NCBI RefSeq assembly: GCF_026627425.1 | Contig: NZ_JAPNLH010000005.1 | Location: 1-64,000, forward strand | Direction of reading: 5' to 3' | Length of the DNA stretch: 64,000 bases | Source of the DNA: Arthrobacter endolithicus | GTDB lineage: Bacteria > Actinomycetota > Actinomycetes > Actinomycetales > Micrococcaceae | Position numbers and translations under genes: made by a program | In this document: piece by piece, positions 11,434 through 23,741 of the stretch | Position numbering within the stretch: the first letter of the stretch is position 1 | How the letters are laid out: the number at the start of each line of letters is the position of its first letter | The notes under the pieces: generated by a model | What the model was told of the DNA's origin: nothing | Database searches by the model: none | What the model saw: only the letters and a program-made list of their open reading frames with translations

Positions 11434-12192
11434 ATGAAGACTCTCGGCCAACAAACGGCACCAACGTATCAGGGACAATACCAGGGCGCTGCACTCCAAC
11501 CCACTTGGCGCCATCGGATTATGCGACTGGTTCGGCGGCGACGGCGCTTCATTGCCGCCCTGCTTCTCTGTGCGGCAACGGCCGTGGCTGTCCAGCAACT
11601 GGCCCCGGCACCCGTGGACACCGTCGTGATTGTCGTCGCCGCCAGGGATCTGGCCGGCGGGGCAATGCTCGGCGCTGCGGACCTGGCACTGCAACGGCTG
11701 CCCCAGGACGCGGTACCGGCAGCGGCATTCCGTTCTCAAGATTCAGTCGCCGGCCGGCAACTCTCCGGCCCGCTGCGAAAAGGGCAGGTTCTCACGGATG
11801 CTGCGCTTTTGGGTTCGGGATTGCTGATCGGAACTCCTACCGGCAGCCAGGCGGTGCCCATTCGGCTTGCCGACGCAGCCACCGTCGCTCTGATCAACCC
11901 CGGTCAGCTGGTCAACGTAGTCCTGAGCACCAGCACAGGGCTGGACCAGACCGCTGTCAACCAGGTGCTGGCCGAGGCCGTACCCGTGCTTTGGAAACCA
12001 CCCGTCACCGGACTGAGCCAGGATCTGCTGCCCGGCAAAGAAGCCGACGGACTGGTGGTCGTCGCGGCCACCGGTGATCAGGCCGTCAAGCTGGCCGGAG
12101 CGTCCGCTCGCGGCAAGCTCTTCCTGGTCCTGGTGACCCCGGCTGACCAATCGCGTGCCACTACCCCCAGTGCGGAGGGCGTTGGTCCTTGA
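11434..12192 (+). CDS. SAF-domain membrane protein (CpaB/RcpC-like)
   Basis: A 252-residue protein: basic N-terminus (RLVRRRRRF), one transmembrane helix (about 40-55), then an extracytoplasmic SAF domain (VVIVVAARDLAGGAMLGAADL) as in CpaB/RcpC proteins of Flp pilus assembly and antifreeze/SAF families. No other pilus genes are adjacent, so an orphan role at the membrane is as likely. Its 3' end overlaps the convergent helicase gene by 32 bases. Confidence 0.8.
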   Translation: MKTLGQQTAPTYQGQYQGAALQPTWRHRIMRLVRRRRRFIAALLLCAATAVAVQQLAPAPVDTVVIVVAARDLAGGAMLGAADLALQRLPQDAVPAAAFRSQDSVAGRQLSGPLRKGQVLTDAALLGSGLLIGTPTGSQAVPIRLADAATVALINPGQLVNVVLSTSTGLDQTAVNQVLAEAVPVLWKPPVTGLSQDLLPGKEADGLVVVAATGDQAVKLAGASARGKLFLVLVTPADQSRATTPSAEGVGP

Positions 12193-15100
12193 GCCAGTCG
12201 TCGTACCCCTCGTCCGTCTTATCTCCCCAGGCACGCGGGTCGTCCTTGGCTGCGACCGTGGCGAGCAGCGGTTCCGCATCCTCCGGGAGCGTTAGTTCTG
12301 TGGCGTCAGCGCGTGCAGCGGGTGCCGTCGTTGAGCCGACATCGTCCGCCAATGCCGGTCCCGTTTCTAGTCCAGCAGTTGCTCCCATGCCTGGTCCCGT
12401 TTCTATTTCAGCAGGTGTCCCCGTGGCAGTCCTCGTGTCCGTTCCCGCTTGCCCTCCCGTCTCCGGGTTTACGACGTCGGCGTTGCCGTCCGCTCCAGCG
12501 GCCATGGATGCCTGCGCCGGATCATTGCCCTCGGCAACGGCGGAAGGGCGACCGGCCGACCCCTCGACCTCCCCGGCCCACACTGTTCCCTCGGACTCCT
12601 GCTGCGTCTCCATCTCTGAGGACCTAGCTTCAGAAAACCCACCCTCCGAAGAGACTGCGTCTGAAGCCGCTAGGTCCAAAGACACGGCCGTTGCCTCTGT
12701 GCCCTTAGCCTGCGCCCCCTGTTGATCGACTTCCGCAGCGCCGGTACGCGATTCGTCCGGTCGGGGACCCCCTGACAATGGCCTGGCCGCCGTAGCGGGC
12801 CCCAACAAGGAGGAGAGCTCGCCTTCGTTCAGCGCCGGTGAAAGGCCCAGGTATCCGCCAATCCGGTCGGCACATAGAGAGGGGTCGGTAAAGACCTCAA
12901 TTGTCCACAGCGGCATGTAACGCCATCCGAGCCGTTCAAGCAGCTGCGGCCGGAGCCGGCTACGCTCTCTAACGCTCATCCCCTGGTACTTTGCCGTTCC
13001 ATCGGATTCCACGGCCACCGGGGTCGGGATTTCGTCATCCTGCTTGCCTAGGTTCTGCAACGGGTCCGATGCGGCCACCATGTCGAGGACGCCGTCGTAG
13101 TGATGCCAAACGCGTGCTCCCCGGGCCCGCAGCCGCTCCGCCAGATCGGCGACAAGCGGGTCTTCACCCAGCGACTGCTCGCTGGCAGCGGCCCGTGAGG
13201 CGGTCGTTCCCAGCCGGGAGTTTCCCGCCAGTTCGCGGTCCAGCAGCTCATAGAAATCGCGTGCCCCGTAGCTCAACCGGGCCTCGTCCAGATCCTCGGG
13301 GCGGAAACAGGTGATGATCTGCAGATGCTCCCTGGCGCGTGTCATGGCCAGCGCGAACTTCGAGCGCCCGTCAGAAGCCGACAACGGGCCGAAATTATGC
13401 AGCGCCCGCCCATGTGGCGTCCGTCCGTACCCAAGGGAAAAGATCACATGGTCACGGACCAGACCCGCTGCCCTGTTCACGGTGACCACCCGGAAGGATT
13501 CCGGGCTGGAGGCGAAGAACTCGGTCAGCAGCGGGTGGTTCGGCATTTGCATCCGGATGGCCTGGGCCACCCGGATTGCGTGCCGTTCGCTGGCCGTGAC
13601 GACCGCGAGGGAGGAACGCGGACGGACCCGGGCATGTTCAAAAACCAGATCGACAACACGGTTTACCTCGGCCACCACGGATTCAACGCCATCAATGCCG
13701 GTCCCGGGCAGACCCGTGCCGTCCGGCAGGTAGTCAACCACCAGTGATCTGTCCAGCCCGGTCACGGTGCGCCCGTCCGGCATTCTTTCGAGCTGGTCAT
13801 CGTAGAAGTCTTTACTCAGCTGGAGGACCAGCTCCTCATCCACCGCCCGATACGACACGCTCAGCCGGCGTCCCGGGAGGACCTTGGCCAGGGCACCGAA
13901 GATACTCTCCGGGCGTTGGGACTCTTCCTCGCCGCGTGCCACTTTTTCGACCGCGACGGAGAAGGCACGCGGAGCCGCCGTCTGCTCGTCACCGAAAGCG
14001 ATCACCTGCCGGGCACGTGCAATGGACGGCAGGGCCGCCTGCAGCGAAGTGGATTCCGCGTCGAGGATGACGACGGCGTCAAAGCGCTGCCCTGCCGGAA
14101 CCACAGCGGGGAGCATCAAGGGACTCGTTGCCCATACCGGCAGCAGGTTGGCCAGCAGGTCAGGGGTCTGCTTCGCGAGCCCCTCTAGGGTCACGCGCCC
14201 GTCCTTAAGTAGGTTCCGCAGCAGTTCGCCCTGACGGTTGCGGCCGGAGACGGTGGAGTTCCATTTCTGGGCCAGCCGCCACCGCAGCCGCGGGCTGCCG
14301 CTGTCGACGTGCGCCTGGTCGGCTAGACGGAACTCGGACTCCAAGCGGCGCAGGTTCTCGCCGTCGGACATGGCAAGATAATCATCGCCGCTGATCATGG
14401 CCTCCAGCGCCGACTGCCACCATGCCAGTTCCAGCTCGGTGCGCGTCTCGGCCGGTGCCACCTCACGGTCCGTCAGATCGTCCAGCAACTCGCCAAGTCC
14501 ATGTTCGCGCATGCTTTCCAGCAGCAGGGTGCGCTCCGGCAGGGTCTGCAGCGTTTCCTTATCATCCACCAGGGCCTGCAGGCGGACGATCAGCTCATCG
14601 ATGCCGGTGCTTTCCAGCCCACCGCCGGCGGCTGTCCGCTCCACTGCCAGGCCCAGCTGGTGCAGCAGGCCGCCAAGCCCGGTGTGCGTGGCGCGAAGTT
14701 CGGCAAGCCCGGACGGGACGGCCGGATGGCGTTCCGTCGTGGCGTAGTCCGCCCACACCGAGCGTTGTTCCTGCACCAGCACCAGGGAGGTGTGCAGATC
14801 CGAGATGTGCACCCCGGGGCGCACATATTCCTTCGCCACCCTCCGCAGTCGGGAACGCTGCATGGCGGGCATCTCCAGACTCCGCTCACGGCGCCAGCCG
14901 GAACTGGCGGTAGCCGAGATGAGGTCCGTGACGGGGCGGTCAAAGATATCCGGGGTGAATTTATCCAGGCTCTCCCGCACGGCCACCAACAGTTCCAGCT
15001 GTTCGCCCCACTCAACAAAGCTGTGGCCCTCGCGGATCTGAGAGAACTCGGCCATCTCGTTCATCTTGCGGGCAAACTCGGGCAGCTGAGTCAGCAGTCC

Positions 15101-16588
15101 GCTGGCCAAGGCATGGGCCTCTTCGGTTTCCTTGCGGGTCACCAGCCGGGCCCCGTGCCACGCACTGGTAGTGGCGGATTTACTGAAACTGCCCAGTTCC
15201 GCGGCGCGGCGCAGCCGTCCGGCCAGTTCGTCACGGTCCGCGATGTTGTCCAGGACGCTGCGCTTGAGCCGGACGGTGGTGGACGGCGCCGGATGGATCG
15301 AGGTCAGCTCAGCCAGTGACTGCATTGCCTGATAAGGGGAACAACCCCAGCGTTGGCGCACATTGTGCAGGGAGGCTACGTGGTCCATCAGGTGGTGGCG
15401 GTGCTCGGTCAGCGTCCGGTGCAGATCGGTCAACTTCGGCTCTGCGGCCTTTTCATTGCGCACAATCGCCCGGACCAGCGCGGATTTGAGGTGTTGCGGA
15501 CCGGTTTGCGCACTGAGCTGCAGCAGCAGATCCGCCAGACCCAGATCCGAGAACCGCTGCGCCAGTTCGTTCAGCGTGCCGCGGCGCTCCCCGATCACCA
15601 GCACGCTCTTGCCGTCAAAAACCAAAGCAGCTATGGCGTTAATGGCGGTCTGCGTCTGGCCGGTCCCCGGTGGGGCTGAGACGACCAGTGAATCACCAGC
15701 GCGGATCATATCGAGCACCTGCTGCTGGCGGGTATCGGCGTCGAGCACCAGCAGCTCGTCGTGCGGTTCGCGTGCGTCCAAGGCCGTGAATCTACCCGAT
15801 TCGCCCCGATCGTCCGCCTCATGCAGGGCGGAACGGACCGCGTCAGCGCCCTCATCACGGCTTGCGGAGCTCAGCGCGTCGACAAAGGGGTTCCCCGCGA
15901 GCAGCGCAGCGTCGTGCAGGTTTTCGGCGAGGTCGGCAAAGGTGGAGACCAGCAGGTGATGCTCGACGACGGCGCCCTTGATCGGCTGCACCAGGGCACG
16001 CAAGCGCTCCAAGACGGGAGCCGGATTAAAGCGCGCCGTGCTGTAGGCCAGCCTGGCCAAGGACTGCGGATCAAGCTCGATGCCGTGAACGTGGCGCAGG
16101 CTGCGCACCAGAGCAGGATTCAGTCGTGCCTGCTCCGTGAGTTGGAGTTCATAGTCGTCCTGCCCCGGCCGGGCGGTCATGACAATCGCGGTCAGCAGCA
16201 CCGGGGCGCAGACGTGGTGTGGTTCCACGGTGCTGCCCCCCGCGCCGTCGTTTCGTGTCGCGTTAGTCCAGCTGGCCGTCCCGGCCGCCAGATAGCCCAC
16301 ATCGATGCCGCGGTCAGAGCCCAGCTCAAAAATTTTCGCCCGCAGCGTTCCCGCAGTGCGGACGGCCACGGCGTACTGGCCAGCATCACGGACCAAGGTG
16401 GAAAGCCTGGTGCGCCGGCCTGTCAGCAGCTGCGCCAGGCCGGAGGGATGGGCATGCGTCAGGTCAATGCAGCCCTCGGGAGCCTTAGTGAAGCCCAGCA
16501 GCGTGTCGGGGCCGGAGTAGGAGCCCAGCCCGGCAAGCCATGTCCGGAGCTCGTTGGAGGTCTCGCCCTGGCTGACTTTTTCCGACAC
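12161..16588 (-). CDS. DUF4011-like / SF1 helicase-like / PD-(D/E)XK (MTES_1575) protein
   Basis: A protein of about 1475 residues. The N-terminal part resembles DUF4011 (HPSGLAQLLTGRRTRLSTL). An SF1 helicase-like core follows: a Walker A position near residue 300 reading APPGTGQTQTA (Gln for the essential Lys), a Walker B position near 840 reading VVILDAES (usual family DEAS), AFGDEQTAAP, VSYRAVDEEL and a C-terminal RecA part SKFALAMTRAREHLQ. A nuclease-like domain (VAVESDGTAKY, LLERLGWRYMPLW) lies near 1190, then about 200 low-complexity residues and DWLKDQRPPHWG. GTG 16588 was preferred over ATG 16729 because GAAGAAGG sits five bases upstream and the earlier part is repetitive. Function unknown; possibly nucleic-acid surveillance or defence. 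Confidence 0.8.
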   Translation of the reverse strand: MSEKVSQGETSNELRTWLAGLGSYSGPDTLLGFTKAPEGCIDLTHAHPSGLAQLLTGRRTRLSTLVRDAGQYAVAVRTAGTLRAKIFELGSDRGIDVGYLAAGTASWTNATRNDGAGGSTVEPHHVCAPVLLTAIVMTARPGQDDYELQLTEQARLNPALVRSLRHVHGIELDPQSLARLAYSTARFNPAPVLERLRALVQPIKGAVVEHHLLVSTFADLAENLHDAALLAGNPFVDALSSASRDEGADAVRSALHEADDRGESGRFTALDAREPHDELLVLDADTRQQQVLDMIRAGDSLVVSAPPGTGQTQTAINAIAALVFDGKSVLVIGERRGTLNELAQRFSDLGLADLLLQLSAQTGPQHLKSALVRAIVRNEKAAEPKLTDLHRTLTEHRHHLMDHVASLHNVRQRWGCSPYQAMQSLAELTSIHPAPSTTVRLKRSVLDNIADRDELAGRLRRAAELGSFSKSATTSAWHGARLVTRKETEEAHALASGLLTQLPEFARKMNEMAEFSQIREGHSFVEWGEQLELLVAVRESLDKFTPDIFDRPVTDLISATASSGWRRERSLEMPAMQRSRLRRVAKEYVRPGVHISDLHTSLVLVQEQRSVWADYATTERHPAVPSGLAELRATHTGLGGLLHQLGLAVERTAAGGGLESTGIDELIVRLQALVDDKETLQTLPERTLLLESMREHGLGELLDDLTDREVAPAETRTELELAWWQSALEAMISGDDYLAMSDGENLRRLESEFRLADQAHVDSGSPRLRWRLAQKWNSTVSGRNRQGELLRNLLKDGRVTLEGLAKQTPDLLANLLPVWATSPLMLPAVVPAGQRFDAVVILDAESTSLQAALPSIARARQVIAFGDEQTAAPRAFSVAVEKVARGEEESQRPESIFGALAKVLPGRRLSVSYRAVDEELVLQLSKDFYDDQLERMPDGRTVTGLDRSLVVDYLPDGTGLPGTGIDGVESVVAEVNRVVDLVFEHARVRPRSSLAVVTASERHAIRVAQAIRMQMPNHPLLTEFFASSPESFRVVTVNRAAGLVRDHVIFSLGYGRTPHGRALHNFGPLSASDGRSKFALAMTRAREHLQIITCFRPEDLDEARLSYGARDFYELLDRELAGNSRLGTTASRAAASEQSLGEDPLVADLAERLRARGARVWHHYDGVLDMVAASDPLQNLGKQDDEIPTPVAVESDGTAKYQGMSVRERSRLRPQLLERLGWRYMPLWTIEVFTDPSLCADRIGGYLGLSPALNEGELSSLLGPATAARPLSGGPRPDESRTGAAEVDQQGAQAKGTEATAVSLDLAASDAVSSEGGFSEARSSEMETQQESEGTVWAGEVEGSAGRPSAVAEGNDPAQASMAAGADGNADVVNPETGGQAGTDTRTATGTPAEIETGPGMGATAGLETGPALADDVGSTTAPAARADATELTLPEDAEPLLATVAAKDDPRAWGDKTDEGYDDWLKDQRPPHWG

Positions 16589-16609
16589 TAGTGCCTTCTT
16601 CTCTCTATT

Positions 16610-16705
16610 GGATCGCGCAGGGCTCGACCTCGCAGGGCTGGACCGCTCAGGGCTGGATCCATCGGTGTTTGATCTATCGGCGTTTGATCTATCGGCGTTA
16701 GAGCG
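16610..16705. repeat. 15-bp tandem repeats in the leader of the helicase-like gene
   Basis: On the plus strand, units such as AGGGCTGGACCGCTC, AGGGCTGGATCCATC, GGTGTTTGATCTATC and GGCGTTTGATCTATC follow one another for about six units. If translated from ATG 16729 they give a 5-residue repeat (RSNAD, RSNAD, RSNTD, GSSPE, RSSPA). The 15-bp period keeps the frame open, which explains why a longer reading frame exists there; the ribosome site argues that translation starts after them. Confidence 0.75.
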
Positions 16706-16786
16706 TGACGATCTGGACCATACGGGCATCTTTTGAGGCTATCCCTTGTTGTGCAGAAATCGCGGCAACGGCACACTGATCCGGCG

Positions 16787-18376
16787 CTATTCCCACTCGA
16801 TGGTTCCCGGCGGCTTGCTGGTGACGTCGAGCACGACGCGGTTAACGCCGTCGACCTCGTTCGTGATCCGGTTGGAGATGCGGGCCAGCAGGTCATACGG
16901 CAGTCTGGACCAGTCTGCCGTCATCGCATCTTCGCTGGAGACGGGCCGGAGCACAATAGGGTGTCCGTAGGTTCGGCCGTCGCCCTGTACCCCGACGCTG
17001 CGGACGTCCGCCAGCAGCACCACGGGCATCTGCCATACTTCATTGTCCAGCCCCGCCGCAGTCAGCTCGGCGCGGGCGATGGCATCGGCCTTTCGCAACA
17101 ACGCCAGTCTCTCGCGGGTGACGTCGCCGACAATCCGGATCCCCAGGCCGGGGCCGGGGAAGGGCTGGCGTCCCACGATCTCGGCCGGCAGGCCCAGTTG
17201 GGCGCCCACGGCGCGGACCTCGTCCTTGAACAGCGCACGCAGCGGCTCCACGAGCTCAAACTGCAGGTCTTCGGGGAGCCCGCCGACGTTGTGATGACTC
17301 TTAATGTTGGCTGCTCCCTCGCCTCCCCCGGACTCGACGACGTCCGGATAAAGGGTCCCCTGCACCAGGAACTTGATCGCTTCGCCGTCGGAACCGGCCT
17401 CGCTGATCAAGGCGCGCTCGGCTTCTTCAAAGGCGCGGATAAATTCGCGGCCGATGATCTTGCGCTTGGTTTCCGGGTCGGATACGCCGGCCAGGGCATC
17501 GAGGAAACGGTCAGTCTCTTTCGCAACATAGAGTTTGACACCGGTCGCGGCGACAAAATCCCGCTCCACCTGCTCGGCTTCACCCTCGCGCAGCAGACCG
17601 TGATCAACGAAGACACAGGTCAATTGATCTCCGACGGCGCGCTGGACCAGGGCCGCCGCGACGGCCGAATCCACTCCTCCGGACAAACCACAGATCACCC
17701 GGGCGCCGCCGATCTGGTCGCGGATCCGCTGGACCTGCTCCTCAACGATGTTTCCGGTGGTCCAATTGGGCTGCAGCTTGGCGCCGTAGAACAAGAAGTT
17801 CTCCAGCACCTGCTGGCCGAAGTCAGAATGCTTGACTTCCGGGTGCCACTGCACGCCAAAGAGTGATTTTGCTTCATTGGCGAAGGCTGCCACGGGTGCG
17901 CTGTCAGTGCTGGCCAGGACCTCGAAGCCCTCAGGTGCCTGCTGGACGCTGTCACCGTGGCTCATCCAGGCGTTCTGATGGTTCGGGGTGCCGGCCAAAA
18001 TGGACCGTCCGTCCCCCACCGTCGTGATATCCGTTGCCCCGTATTCACGCAGCCCGGTCTGTGCCACGGTCCCGCCCATCGCCGCGGCCATCGCCTGGAA
18101 TCCGTAGCAGATCCCCAATACCGGAATGCCGGTTTCGAAGAGGTCAGGACTGACGGACGGAGCGCCGTCAGCGTAGACGCTGGACGGACCGCCGGAAAGG
18201 ATGATGGCCGCCGGATTCTTCGCCAGCAACTGTTCGGTGCTCAGCGTGTGCGGCACCACCTCCGAGTACACGTTGGCCTCACGGACGCGACGGGCAATTA
18301 GCTGGGCATACTGGGCGCCGTAGTCGACGACGAGGACGGGCTGCTGCGTAGTCTGGGGTTCTGCGGGGGTAGTCAC
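16787..18376 (-). CDS. guaA: GMP synthase (glutamine-hydrolysing)
   Basis: A 529-residue enzyme converting XMP to GMP with glutamine and ATP. The glutamine amidotransferase domain is first (nucleophile Cys in [10 protein letters not shown]; catalytic His/Glu in GVQWHPEV). The ATP pyrophosphatase domain follows with P-loop [12 protein letters not shown], and a dimerisation domain ends in the typical KPPGTIEWE. Full length. Together with guaB and guaB3 further on, the window holds the whole IMP-to-GMP branch. Confidence 0.98.
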
Positions 18377-20001: not shown

Positions 20002-20194
20002 GTTGACCGCTCAATGCGCGCGGGATGGATGATGCGCGCTCTAAGGTCCGGACGCTGCGCAGATCGTAAAGTTCCCCGGGAATTCTTGGGATACGCTCGG
20101 CCCGGTCTGCCGAAGAGGTGAGTAAGGTCACGATTTGATCACGAAATTTACGGTCCCCGTGCCCGGCGTGAAACCCGGCCTAGGCTGGATCTTT

Positions 20195-21910
20195 GTGCGT
20201 ACATTCCCTTACCCCGTGTCGACTGGCCCGGATGTGCGCTCTCCGCTTCGTTACTTGTGGTGGCTGGCCCGCCAGCAAGGGGCCTCGCTGGCGGCCGGAA
20301 TGGTCTTCGGCTCCGTCTGGATGCTCAGCCAGGCGCTGGTTCCCCTGGTTTTGGGCAAGGCCTTGGACCAGGGCATTCTCGGTCGGGACTTTGCTGCGCT
20401 CCTGGCCTGGACGGGAGTGCTGCTGCTGCTGGCCGTGGTCCAGTCCGTCTTCGCCGTCCTCCGGCACCGGATCTCGGTCAGCAACTGGCTGCAGGCGGCG
20501 TTCCGGTCCATCCAATTGGTGGGCCACAAGATCACCTACAGCGGGGATGCCCTGCCGCGGAAATTCTCCACCGGAGAGGTGGTCTCCACCGCCGCCTCGG
20601 ACGCCACCCGGATCGGGCAGATCTACGACACCTTCGCAAGGCTCACCGGATCGGCTTTGTCCTACGTCGTGGTCACCGTCCTCGTGGCACAGGTGTCCTT
20701 GACCCTGGGGATCACCGTGCTGGTGGGAGTGCCGGCATGCTGCGCCATGCTGCTGTTCATCATCCGACCGCTGCAGAGCCGGCAGCGGGCACAGCGTGAG
20801 GAGTCCGGCAAAATGACCGCCGTGGGTGCGGACACCGTGGCGGGGCTGCGCGTACTGCGCGGGATCGGCGGGGAACACATCTTCGTGGGCCGCTACAAGA
20901 AACGGTCGCAGGCAACCCGGCAGACCGGCAACGATGTGGCCCGCTCGCTGGCCACCCTGGAAGCCACCCAGTTGCTGGTCACCGGCGGTTTTGCCGTGCT
21001 CTTCACTTGGCTGGGTGCCTCGCTGGCCGTCACGGGCCAGATCTCACCGGGGCAATTGGTCTCGTTGTATGGTTTCGCCGTTTTCCTGGTGACGCCGGTC
21101 CGTTCCGTGGCGCAGGCCGTTTCCTCCGCCATCCGCGCCGTGGTCGGCGCACGCAAGATCATCAACGTTCTGGGCACCGAATCGGCGGTGCGGACGCCGG
21201 CGGATCCGGAGCCCGCACCGCAGGCGGCCGCCTCCTTCTACGACACCGCGTCATCGGTGGAGATTGCACCATGCCGGCTGACCGCCGTCGTCTCCGGGAA
21301 TCCGGCCGATTCCGCGGCCCTGGCCGAGCGATTGGGCCGCTTCGATGATGATGCCCTCAGTACGACGCCTGTGCTGTGGGGTCAGACGGCGCTGCACCGC
21401 GTGGCGCTGGGACAGGTGCGCCGGCGGATCGTCTTCAGTGAGGCGGATCCGCAGTTGTTTACCGGCACCTTACGCGAGGGGCTGGATCCGCAGCAGACGC
21501 ACGACGACGACGACGTGCTGGCCGCGCTCGAAGCCGCCAGTGCGCTGGACATCCTGGCGGGTGTGGAGGAAGGACTGGACTACAAGGTCACCGAACGTGG
21601 ACGGTCCTTTTCCGGCGGCCAGCGCCAGCGTCTGGCGCTGGCCCGGGCGCTCTTGACCGAGGCGGAGACGCTGCTCCTGGTGGAGCCCACGAGCGCCGTC
21701 GACGCCCATACCGAGGCGCGGATCGCCGCCCGGCTGGCGGCGGCCCGCGGCGACGGACGCACCACCGTCGTGGTGACGGCCAGCCCGCTGATGCTCGGCG
21801 CCATGGACCACGTGGTGTTCCTGCACGACGGAATCTTAGCGGCGGCGGGCACGCACCGCGAACTGCTGGAAAACTCCGACTACCGGGACGTGGTGATCCG
21901 CGGTGAGTGA
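20195..21910 (+). CDS. ABC exporter half-transporter with degenerate ATP site (subunit 1)
   Basis: A half-transporter of about 571 residues: six-helix ABC exporter membrane domain (YLWWLARQQ onward), then a nucleotide-binding domain. The Walker A loop is missing (the position reads LTAVVSGNPADSAALAERL), the Walker B Asp-Glu is LLLVEPTSAVD, and the H-loop His is absent (VVVTASPLML), but the signature RSFSGGQRQRLALARALL is intact. It therefore probably contributes only its signature motif to ATP hydrolysis. GTG 20195 was chosen because the typical VRTFPYP start follows; TTG 20135 is an alternative. Overlaps subunit 2 by eight bases. Confidence 0.9.
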   Translation: MRTFPYPVSTGPDVRSPLRYLWWLARQQGASLAAGMVFGSVWMLSQALVPLVLGKALDQGILGRDFAALLAWTGVLLLLAVVQSVFAVLRHRISVSNWLQAAFRSIQLVGHKITYSGDALPRKFSTGEVVSTAASDATRIGQIYDTFARLTGSALSYVVVTVLVAQVSLTLGITVLVGVPACCAMLLFIIRPLQSRQRAQREESGKMTAVGADTVAGLRVLRGIGGEHIFVGRYKKRSQATRQTGNDVARSLATLEATQLLVTGGFAVLFTWLGASLAVTGQISPGQLVSLYGFAVFLVTPVRSVAQAVSSAIRAVVGARKIINVLGTESAVRTPADPEPAPQAAASFYDTASSVEIAPCRLTAVVSGNPADSAALAERLGRFDDDALSTTPVLWGQTALHRVALGQVRRRIVFSEADPQLFTGTLREGLDPQQTHDDDDVLAALEAASALDILAGVEEGLDYKVTERGRSFSGGQRQRLALARALLTEAETLLLVEPTSAVDAHTEARIAARLAAARGDGRTTVVVTASPLMLGAMDHVVFLHDGILAAAGTHRELLENSDYRDVVIRGE

Positions 21911-23741
21911 CACCGAGGCCGAACAACTCAATATCTCCACCTCCCCGGACTCGCCCGGAGCTGCAGCTGAAACCCGCACCGGAGCCGGCCCTGACGCGGT
22001 GCAGAACGGCCAGCTCCCGGTGTCCGATTCTCCGCAGGTCCGGGCGGAAACGCGGCGGCTGCTTTCGATGCACCGCGCTGCACTGATCAAGGTGGTGGCG
22101 CTGTTCGTGCTGGCCGCCGTCGCCGGCCTGGCGGGCCCCGTCTTGCTGAAACTGATTGTCGACGGCGTTGCCGCGGGGACCACTGTTGGCTATGTCAGCA
22201 GGCTCAGCCTGGTGATGGCCGGATTTGTGCTGCTGCAGGCCCTCCTGCAGCGGTTTGCGATGACAGCGTCCATGATCGCCGGGGAAAGGGTCTTCGCGCA
22301 GCTGCGCGAGGAGTTCATGGACCAGGTGACGGCCCTTCCGCTGTCCACGGTGGAAAAGGCCGGCACCGGGGACCTCGTTTCGCGCACCACTAATGATGTG
22401 GAGGCGGTCTCCTTCGCCGTCCGGTTTGCGGTTCCGCAAATCCTGGTTTCCGCCATTACCGTGGCGCTGACGGTGGCGGCCGCCGTCGCGGTCTCCCCTG
22501 TCACGGCGATTGCGCTGCTGGCGGGCGCTCCGCTGATGATTCCGGTAACGCGCTGGTACCTCAAGCGCTCGGCCGCCGGGTACCTGACGGAACGGGAAAG
22601 CTATTCCGTGGTCAATGGCTCCATCACGGAGACCATTGAGGGTGCCCGCACGGTGGATGCACTGAGCCTGGGCGCACTGCGCCGGCGGTCCATTGACAAT
22701 GCACTGCTGGGCAGTTTCCGGGCCGAACGCTATACGCTCTCGCTGCGCAGTGTCCTGTTTCCCGCCACGGAATTCGCCTTTTACCTCCCCGTGGCGGTGG
22801 TCCTGCTGTGGGGCGGCTGGCTGGCCACCGAAGGCGAGGTGACCCCGGGCATCGTTGCCGCCGTCGCCCTGTATGCCCTCCAGCTCATCGACCCGGTCAA
22901 CACCTTGATCATGTGGCTGGACGAACTCCAGGTCGGCGCCTCGTCGCTGGCACGCATCACCGGAATCCGCAATGTTCCCGCGGACCGGACGGCTTCCGGC
23001 GTGCTTCCGAAGGGTCAGGATATCCACGTTCAGGCCGCGCGCTACGCGTACCGGCCGGGGCACGATGTGCTGCACGGCGTGGATCTGCGCCTGGTGCGCG
23101 GCGAACGACTCGCCGTGGTGGGGCCCTCGGGGGCCGGAAAGTCAACGCTTGGCCGGCTGATTGCCGGTATTCATCCGCCCACCGGCGGATCGGTGCAGGT
23201 GGGCGGCGTTCCGCTGGTCGATCTGCCGCTGGAAGAACTGCGCCGCCAGGTGGCTCTGGTCACCCAGGAGCACCACGTCTTTGTGGGCAGCGTGGCGGAC
23301 AATGTGCGGCTGGGCAAAGCGGACGCCGACGGCACCGAGATTGAACGGGCGCTGGACGACGTCGGCGCGCTGAGTTGGGCGCGCGACCTCCCGGAGGGGC
23401 TGGAGACAGAGGTCGGATCCGGGGCGTATTCGCTGTCGCCTGCCCAGGCGCAGGAGCTCGCACTGGCCCGGCTGATTCTGGCCGACCCCCAAACCTTGGT
23501 GCTGGATGAGGCCACCTCGCTGATCGATCCGCAGGCGGCCCGGGACCTGGAACGATCGCTCAGCGCCGTCCTGAAGGGGCGCACAGTGGTGGCCATTGCG
23601 CATCGTCTGCACACTGCCCATGACGCGGACCGGGTGGCTGTGGTGGAGGGCGGCAGGATCATAGAACTAGGGCCGCATGAGGAACTGCTGGCGCTGGACG
23701 GATCCTACGCGTCGCTGTGGAATTCCTGGCACACGCAATAG
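21903..23741 (+). CDS. ABC exporter half-transporter with catalytic Walker motifs (subunit 2)
   Basis: A 612-residue partner of the preceding gene. After a 45-residue disordered N-terminus comes a six-helix membrane domain, then an NBD with Walker A GPSGAGKSTLGR, Q-loop VTQEHHVF, Walker B TLVLDEATS and H-loop AIAHRLHTA. Its signature is degenerate (YSLSPAQAQELALARL instead of LSGGQ). Combined with subunit 1, one composite ATP site is complete and the other is dead, as in asymmetric heterodimeric exporters. Cargo unknown; lipids, drugs or peptides are all possible. Confidence 0.93.
   Translation: MSDTEAEQLNISTSPDSPGAAAETRTGAGPDAVQNGQLPVSDSPQVRAETRRLLSMHRAALIKVVALFVLAAVAGLAGPVLLKLIVDGVAAGTTVGYVSRLSLVMAGFVLLQALLQRFAMTASMIAGERVFAQLREEFMDQVTALPLSTVEKAGTGDLVSRTTNDVEAVSFAVRFAVPQILVSAITVALTVAAAVAVSPVTAIALLAGAPLMIPVTRWYLKRSAAGYLTERESYSVVNGSITETIEGARTVDALSLGALRRRSIDNALLGSFRAERYTLSLRSVLFPATEFAFYLPVAVVLLWGGWLATEGEVTPGIVAAVALYALQLIDPVNTLIMWLDELQVGASSLARITGIRNVPADRTASGVLPKGQDIHVQAARYAYRPGHDVLHGVDLRLVRGERLAVVGPSGAGKSTLGRLIAGIHPPTGGSVQVGGVPLVDLPLEELRRQVALVTQEHHVFVGSVADNVRLGKADADGTEIERALDDVGALSWARDLPEGLETEVGSGAYSLSPAQAQELALARLILADPQTLVLDEATSLIDPQAARDLERSLSAVLKGRTVVAIAHRLHTAHDADRVAVVEGGRIIELGPHEELLALDGSYASLWNSWHTQ

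Follow-up and report, generated by a model that had tools for sequence, protein, structure and literature searches.

The window discussed here, the 64,000 nucleotides at positions 1 to 64,000 of contig NZ_JAPNLH010000005.1 of Arthrobacter endolithicus (assembly GCF_026627425.1), carries on its minus strand a single very large open reading frame (ORF) that joins a DUF4011-like region, a superfamily 1 (SF1) helicase with eroded ATPase motifs and an MTES_1575-like nuclease domain. It is the Micrococcaceae form of an order-wide core gene, the order being presumably Actinomycetales in the GTDB sense, and is probably, to judge from comparison of sequences, a housekeeping component. Counted from an ATG at 16729, the frame covers 12161-16729 and encodes 1522 amino acids (aa). 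A GTG at 16588, giving a product of 1475 aa, is the likelier start because AGAGAAGAAGG, a ribosome-binding-like site, sits directly 5' of it; the start proposed in a first-pass annotation of the window is thus better supported than the ATG. The segment upstream of the GTG (16589-16729) is a repeat-rich open frame (NADRSNADRSN...), partly common to the relative L001, and the ratio of nonsynonymous to synonymous substitution (dN/dS) is about 0.17 over the first 55 codons from the ATG, so that translation may yet begin there. Residue numbers throughout are counted from ATG 16729. The gene, its parts and the two genes beside it are as follows.

12161-16588, minus strand: gene for a DUF4011-like, apparently dead SF1 helicase and MTES_1575-like nuclease protein (ORF and family scans).
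15779-16564, minus strand: DUF4011-like N-terminal region, residues 56-317 (sub-threshold Pfam match, conserved columns).
15647-15673, minus strand: former Walker A, PPGTGQTQT, with Gln358 replacing Lys (sequence and alignment).
14132-15337, minus strand: long insertion of helices that separates the RecA-like halves, about residues 465-866 (structure model).
14054-14065, minus strand: former Walker B, L889-D890-A-E, in which Leu stands for Asp and Asp for Glu (ungapped register and alignment).
13328-13345, minus strand: motif VI, MTRARE, with Arg1131 kept in 70 of 77 family proteins (alignment).
12839-13234, minus strand: MTES_1575-like PD-(D/E)XK-type nuclease domain, residues 1166-1297 (sub-threshold Pfam match and alignment).
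12275-12838, minus strand: low-complexity, fast-evolving linker (dN/dS 0.36-0.55, no Pfam match).
12164-12274, minus strand: C-terminal tip, ...DDPRAWGD..DDWLKDQRPPHWG, conserved, and in many relatives encoded by a small gene of its own (profile and pattern searches).
16787-18376, minus strand: guaA (GMP synthase), 5' of the gene on the same strand (library scans).
11434-12192, plus strand: SAF/CpaB-like gene, convergent with the large gene and part of a conserved neighbourhood (library scans).

The two convergent genes overlap at their 3' ends by 32 bases. Within the DUF4011-like region the alignment columns contain a conserved DLTHAHPSGLAQLLAGR block, and part of the region is modelled at a predicted local distance difference test (pLDDT) of 80-92 in a second, weak structure model; neither Foldseek nor VIA-align gave a convincing fold match for this N-terminal domain, which in itself does not argue for a new fold. 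The helical insertion is modelled at a pLDDT of mostly 75-90 across model residues 180-450, and lower beyond.

Of central importance is the state of the motor. The first-pass annotation had described a giant frame with eroded ATPase motifs, and GTGQTQT (Gln for Lys), DAES and TRARE are all there. Its Walker B, given as DAES, is indeed eroded, but not as a scrambled DEAS: the canonical FDVVIFDEASQ of L110 and the window's FDAVVILDAES align without a gap, with equal length between FD and R-A-x-QV, which puts Leu889 in place of the Mg-binding Asp and Asp890 in place of the catalytic Glu, while the window's 'AES' occupies the positions of the canonical 'ASQ'. The Walker A Lys is intact in all 12 canonical comparison proteins (11 long relatives and the 1253-aa L070), whose Asp and Glu fall precisely in columns 889 and 890. 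Motif III has likewise changed, its Gln replaced by Thr917. Where an active SF1 helicase has its set of catalytic residues, the window protein has Gln358, Leu889-Asp890 and Thr917, and its ATPase activity, already suspected to be dead, has probably been lost.

The replacements are by no means peculiar to this copy. Family labels such as f1 and f2 are the tool's own, f1 being taken as Micrococcaceae from its named Arthrobacter and Paenarthrobacter orthologues. The motif sample for f1 comprises 77 distinct proteins from 18 named contigs and further genomes, representing 32 of 32 genera, with identical sequences dropped and one fragment (L016) included. None of the 77 has the Walker A Lys, the column reading Q in 60, R in 4, A and G in 3 each, L and E in 2 each, and P, V and D once each. 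Position 889 is Leu in 74 and Ile in 3, position 890 Asp in 74 and Glu in 3; Thr359 is found in 67 and R961 of motif IV in 76. With its eroded motifs common across the family, the protein belongs to a real subfamily and is not a case of private decay, which answers the question that the first-pass annotation had left to an alignment of orthologues.

The remaining P-loop (GTG-Q-TQT), with its frequent Thr359, and the carboxylate present at the catalytic position in every f1 protein might suggest a noncanonical but active ATPase, in which Gln358 and Asp890 sustain nucleotide binding or slow hydrolysis. We regard this as quite improbable, since the window protein has neither the Lys nor the Mg-binding Asp nor the motif III Gln, several families lack any P-loop, and in Deinococcus PriA, according to the excerpted text of PMC4504706, even the milder change of Lys to Arg accompanies loss of ATP hydrolysis.

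Outside f1, the sample consists of 47 chosen proteins from 19 other families, about one per genus, taken from 90 matching genomes. Only five keep the Walker A Lys (L098 and L162 of f5; L110, L125 and L157 of f17), and the f5 fragment L156 reads GTGATQT, without Lys, although f5 otherwise keeps it. Many of the others have lost the P-loop altogether and show TDD where ESDG was; the alignment is uncertain wherever the P-loop is absent, and the Lys column is empty in L105. Canonical orthologues with GKS and DEAS, which had been proposed as a sign that the window's copy is merely decaying, do therefore exist, in f5 and f17, but they belong to other lineages and are no proof of decay. Three of them (L098, L110 and L125) sit at the same locus as the eroded copies. 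One f1 genome (G070:C34, L070) has, besides the core gene, a second and canonical short copy of 1253 aa with GKS and DEAS.

A FastTree phylogeny of 93 proteins over 936 columns, with the fragments L156, L105, L107, L109 and L152 left out of the 98, unites the short family, L070 and the class outsider L143 in one clade (support 1.00). A second clade joins f5 and f17 (1.00), with L119 its sole member without Lys, and a third takes in the other families along with class outsiders c25 and c38 (1.00), with no Lys anywhere. The deeper nodes are weak (0.67 and 0.00), so the number of times the Lys was lost is uncertain: at least two by eye, three counting L156.

The gene is under purifying selection. 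Nei-Gojobori dN/dS ratios for 12 pairs range from 0.045 to 0.348, estimates at dS above 1 being unreliable; the pair L098/L162 is canonical and the pair L147/L149 lies outside the order. For the window gene compared with L001 the ratio comes to 0.174 across the gene; the helicase parts give 0.069-0.119, the tip 0.109 and the linker 0.55. Stepwise erosion of the motifs across families, the existence of canonical orthologues, one f1 genome with the gene in two pieces (G038) and another with a weak match only (G075, expectation value E 5.4e-4) are what might be expected of a former defence gene in decay. That explanation is hardly credible, given frames of at least 1245 aa that stand open in one representative of each of the 32 f1 genera, a Gln358 common to 60 of 77 proteins, and folded parts with dN/dS of 0.02-0.14 against 0.36-0.55 in the linker; it was rejected on the shared motifs and the dN/dS ratios.

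The nuclease domain is the slowest-evolving part of the protein (dN/dS 0.022-0.023; 0.023 for the window gene against L001). Its D1216, E1241 and D1243 are all present in the window protein, in agreement with the kept nuclease-like motif noted at the outset, and the nuclease of the window's lineage may still be cutting. The triplet is whole in 44 of the 77 f1 proteins; E1241 is kept in 45 of them, being often V, S or I in the rest, and in 13 of the 47 proteins of other families.

Library comparisons bear out the order of DUF4011-like, SF1 helicase and PD-(D/E)XK parts and the kinship to Hhe that had been recognized by eye, through sub-threshold Pfam matches together with PADLOC and NCBIfam matches. 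The window protein scores 28.5 bits with Pfam MTES_1575 (PF18741; gathering score 38.2), 13.6 bits with DUF4011 (PF13195; gathering score 22.2) and 14.4 bits with AAA_11 (cut-off 27), AAA_12 being likewise below its cut-off. The syntenic canonical orthologues L098 and L110 pass both DUF4011 (29.3 and 29.0 bits) and MTES_1575 (71.2 and 75.7 bits). PADLOC gives 349.5 bits for PDC-S37, in two stretches of which the best spans 730-1334 of 1550, and 123.9 bits for Hhe, its output including no cut-off; for PDC-S37, L098 and L110 reach 804 and 820 bits. In NCBIfam the window protein scores 322.5 bits with ProA (NF058533) and 173.3 bits with Hhe (NF042953), under equivalog cut-offs of 1500 and 2000.

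The protein resembles Hhe in having DUF4011-like, SF1 helicase and MTES_1575-type nuclease parts in that order, an order that we take from the name of the family, and differs from it in length (about 1475 aa against 1797 model positions), in its lost motor motifs and in its fixed core locus. PDC-S37 and ProA are its best library matches, the best stretch lying in the C-terminal half, but its own catalytic motifs are replaced and its score falls below the ProA cut-off. A profile built from the window protein with 17 orthologues finds a weak RecA1 match to IGHMBP2 (E 0.0085), with other UPF1-like helicases worse, and the folds closest to a low-confidence model (mean pLDDT 59.8) are those of Aquarius, IGHMBP2 and UPF1: IGHMBP2 gives Z 13.4 (root-mean-square deviation, rmsd, 21.4; 267 residues aligned) and the best row Z 14.2 (rmsd 22.0; 270 aligned). 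A tentative likeness is to the UPF1-like SF1B helicases (IGHMBP2/SMUBP-2, UPF1, Aquarius and Dna2), from which the window protein differs in lacking the catalytic residues and in having the helical insertion of about 400 residues and the DUF4011-like and nuclease domains.

The gene is found almost everywhere in its family and order. Matches occur in 149 of 149 f1 genomes, covering 32 of 32 genera, 148 of them at E of 2.3e-201 or below. In the order, 97 of 99 genomes match, from 20 families, seven of the 99 belonging to f1; some weak matches (e.g. G176, 1e-14) may be paralogues. The misses are G201 (62% complete) and G214 (92% complete), and the 0.8-Mb genome G198 retains an open copy of 1205 aa (L126). 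In the class there are matches in 24 of 98 genomes, of which six belong to the order and a further seven are full-length. Two contigs under other labels, L008 (labelled Sporosarcina beigongshangi) and L002 (a metagenome-assembled genome labelled Acidobacteria), carry an Arthrobacter-type guaA with the gene, and these assemblies are probably contaminated or mislabelled. No description of the gene appeared among the matches listed in open-access full-text literature, subscription papers and preprints lying outside that scope. The available portion of a paper on essentiality in B. breve (PMC5514069) does not mention a helicase, and that of a paper on actinobacterial signature proteins (PMC4255298) mentions neither mscL nor the gene.

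Its place on the chromosome is conserved as well. In f1, guaA precedes the gene in 81 of 86 loci (some species being counted twice), four of the five exceptions falling in genus g3 and one at a contig end; in the other families it does so in none of 40 loci. The wider neighbourhood is marked by genes for mscL, SAF/CpaB, penicillin amidase, 5-FTHF cyclo-ligase, an FmdB-type zinc ribbon, a Na/H exchanger and a GalU-type transferase; further markers are, we assume, a RimJ-type acetyltransferase and the MTA phosphorylase group. On pieces of 5.8-12.5 kb, some ending at contig ends, at least one marker is found in 31 of the 40 other-family loci (16 of 19 families), at least two in 22 and MscL in 20, while five f1 representatives have two to four each. 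The canonical copies L098, L110 and L125 share this neighbourhood, and the long canonical relatives of Hhe/PDC-S37 type show markers in 0 of 8 loci. Our reading is that the eroded and canonical copies are orthologues occupying a single place, and that the long relatives are separate genes.

The first-pass annotation had suggested a surveillance or defence factor, and the kinship to PDC-S37, Hhe and ProA would suit a core-encoded, constitutive nuclease directed against phages or plasmids, in which foreign or unusual nucleic acid would be sensed by the dead motor and cut by the kept nuclease. The intact D1216/E1241/D1243 and the very low dN/dS of that domain speak for it, as does Pseudomonas aeruginosa, where a core DUF4011 gene forms the right flank of the defence hotspot cDHS1 in every isolate, as stated in the excerpted text of PMC10250203. 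It is nevertheless unlikely. Rather than the patchy island or hotspot distribution typical of defence systems, the gene is near-universal (148 of 149 and 97 of 99 genomes), lies mostly at one locus over 20 families, is kept in a 0.8-Mb genome and is under purifying selection, and most proteins of other families have lost the nuclease residues. Among ten neighbours of the gene in the window, PADLOC matches only two ABC transporters (20135-23741), as ATPase parts of mad3/mad8 with weak scores of 26-72 bits. Near-universal retention, mostly at one chromosomal place, points to a housekeeping role, not to decay or ordinary phage defence, and the suggestion of a defence factor finds no support.

The large protein may have a small partner. 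Its last 37 residues carry a block conserved across the order, DDxxxWGD..DxWLxEQRPPHW. In 86 examined loci this tip is fused in 23 and a separate small ORF in 49, with ten in which it was not found and four cut by a contig end; the count rests on a text pattern that misses some, as in L099 (G153), whose tip was found by profile near the end of the gene. The 'single-gene' character claimed for the system needs amending for the many relatives that encode the tip in a second, small gene. Six families (f1, f9, f13, f15, f17 and f18) include fusions. The separate ORF lies 3' of the large gene, usually starting at or near its stop, and in 20 of the 49 the picked start overlaps that stop in an xTGA pattern; because the start codon closest to the stop was the one picked, translational coupling is only suggestive. 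The small ORFs of four c38 outsiders, L117 and L160 begin 88-635 bases after the stop, and L112 has none.

In 79 order genomes a tip profile gives 73 matches at E of 1 or below and 53 at 1e-3 or below. Of these 53, the tip lies within 2.5 kb of the large gene in 47; in the other six it is on another contig (four), at a distance of 4.9 kb (one) or in a genome where the large gene has no match (one). The tip is not a motif common to many proteins: in the window's own genome only the large gene matches well (3.2e-13; next 0.05). A DNA pattern for it gave two matches, neither with the rest of the motif, the pattern being too narrow and missing the gene itself, which ends in TAG. In the class the profile matches 46 of 96 genomes at E of 0.01 or below. 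As it is found in class genomes without the large gene, the small gene is broader in distribution and probably older, having been coupled or fused to the large one later. It stands beside or near mscL in 5 of 20 fetched loci that lack the large gene. Many class genomes, including ones without the large gene, encode small actinobacterial proteins of about 42-120 aa (L145, L147, L149 and L182-L201), in some cases beside mscL; they end in PPHW or PPHH and have a DDTDxGWG-like block, and four examples of the PPHW protein gave no Pfam or NCBIfam match.

There are precedents for a dead helicase fold in a core role. RecC itself is not known to have helicase or nuclease activity. According to PMC7644769 it contains domains resembling helicases, and its tunnel is where Chi is recognized; Deinococcus PriA is the other such case (PMC4504706, excerpted text). 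The analogy, if our view of the window protein holds, would be one of working, a helicase fold without activity in a housekeeping DNA role, with no sequence kinship seen and no partner motor recognized. A closer parallel, in which the protein would be a RecC-like subunit whose dead helicase and nuclease folds scan single strands inside a larger repair machine, would fit with the persistence of both folds while their active sites erode, and with the strong conservation of R961 and R1131. We think it distinctly unlikely. PDDEXK_1 is present in 28 of 29 order genomes, and the window's own genome has two adjacent pairs (G000:C11:201131-205386 and C6:51308-55398; 890-1212 aa) in an AddAB/AdnAB-type layout, so that no subunit is obviously missing; Pfam and NCBIfam scans of the neighbours, in the window and in the relatives' loci, revealed no repair gene.

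These observations lead us to favour, with about an even chance of being right, an ATPase-dead helicase-nuclease of antiphage kin that has been domesticated as a vertically inherited scaffold working with the small PPHW protein. Several points weigh against it. The contrast in synteny (31 of 40 loci against 0 of 8) is in part a product of the choice of markers, made after their recurrence was seen; the structure model is weak (pLDDT as above, predicted template modelling score 0.38); and nuclease residues are lost in scattered fashion across families, so that no single catalytic activity accounts for the conservation. The partnership with the small protein has its own difficulties: the f4 tip match is weak (E 0.006-0.02), though at the expected place; no tip was found by profile in the 0.8-Mb G198, or in the class outsiders G245 and G283, which have the large gene; among the 40 tip-bearing genomes (E of 0.01 or below) from the class but not the order, 35 have no full-length match to the large gene, which indicates an independent life for the small one; and tandem adjacency alone could favour fusion.

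On the scaffold reading, the ancestor would have been a helicase-nuclease of Hhe, PDC-S37 or ProA type that became established at a locus alongside mscL, SAF/CpaB-like, FmdB-type, 5-FTHF cyclo-ligase and GalU-type genes and was vertically inherited thereafter. The motor would then have lost ATP binding and hydrolysis in most sampled families, with replacement of the Lys, the Mg-binding Asp, the catalytic Glu and the motif III Gln, and many families would have lost the nuclease residues too, the protein remaining long under purifying selection. We infer that the dead UPF1-like core might grip DNA or RNA without translocating, as a nucleic-acid-binding scaffold; that the nuclease fold may serve as clamp or cutter, possibly still cutting in the window's genus; and that the small acidic PPHW peptide, separate or fused through the flexible linker, could dock the scaffold to a partner. 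More tentatively, and with some doubt on our part, the whole might be an important housekeeping machine of the order: a reader of DNA or RNA that resembles RecC, has lost its ATPase activity and is brought to some core process by the PPHW protein to which it is translationally coupled or fused.

That almost all sampled members of an order retain a protein of about 1200-1700 residues, mostly at one locus, with no function found for it, represents a real gap, and one in which the names of antiphage families could mislabel core genes. If the favoured reading is true, a defence-type helicase-nuclease would have been turned into a housekeeping scaffold through loss of its motor, and the natural series from canonical through ATPase-dead to ATPase- and nuclease-dead forms would allow the role of the dead fold to be probed.

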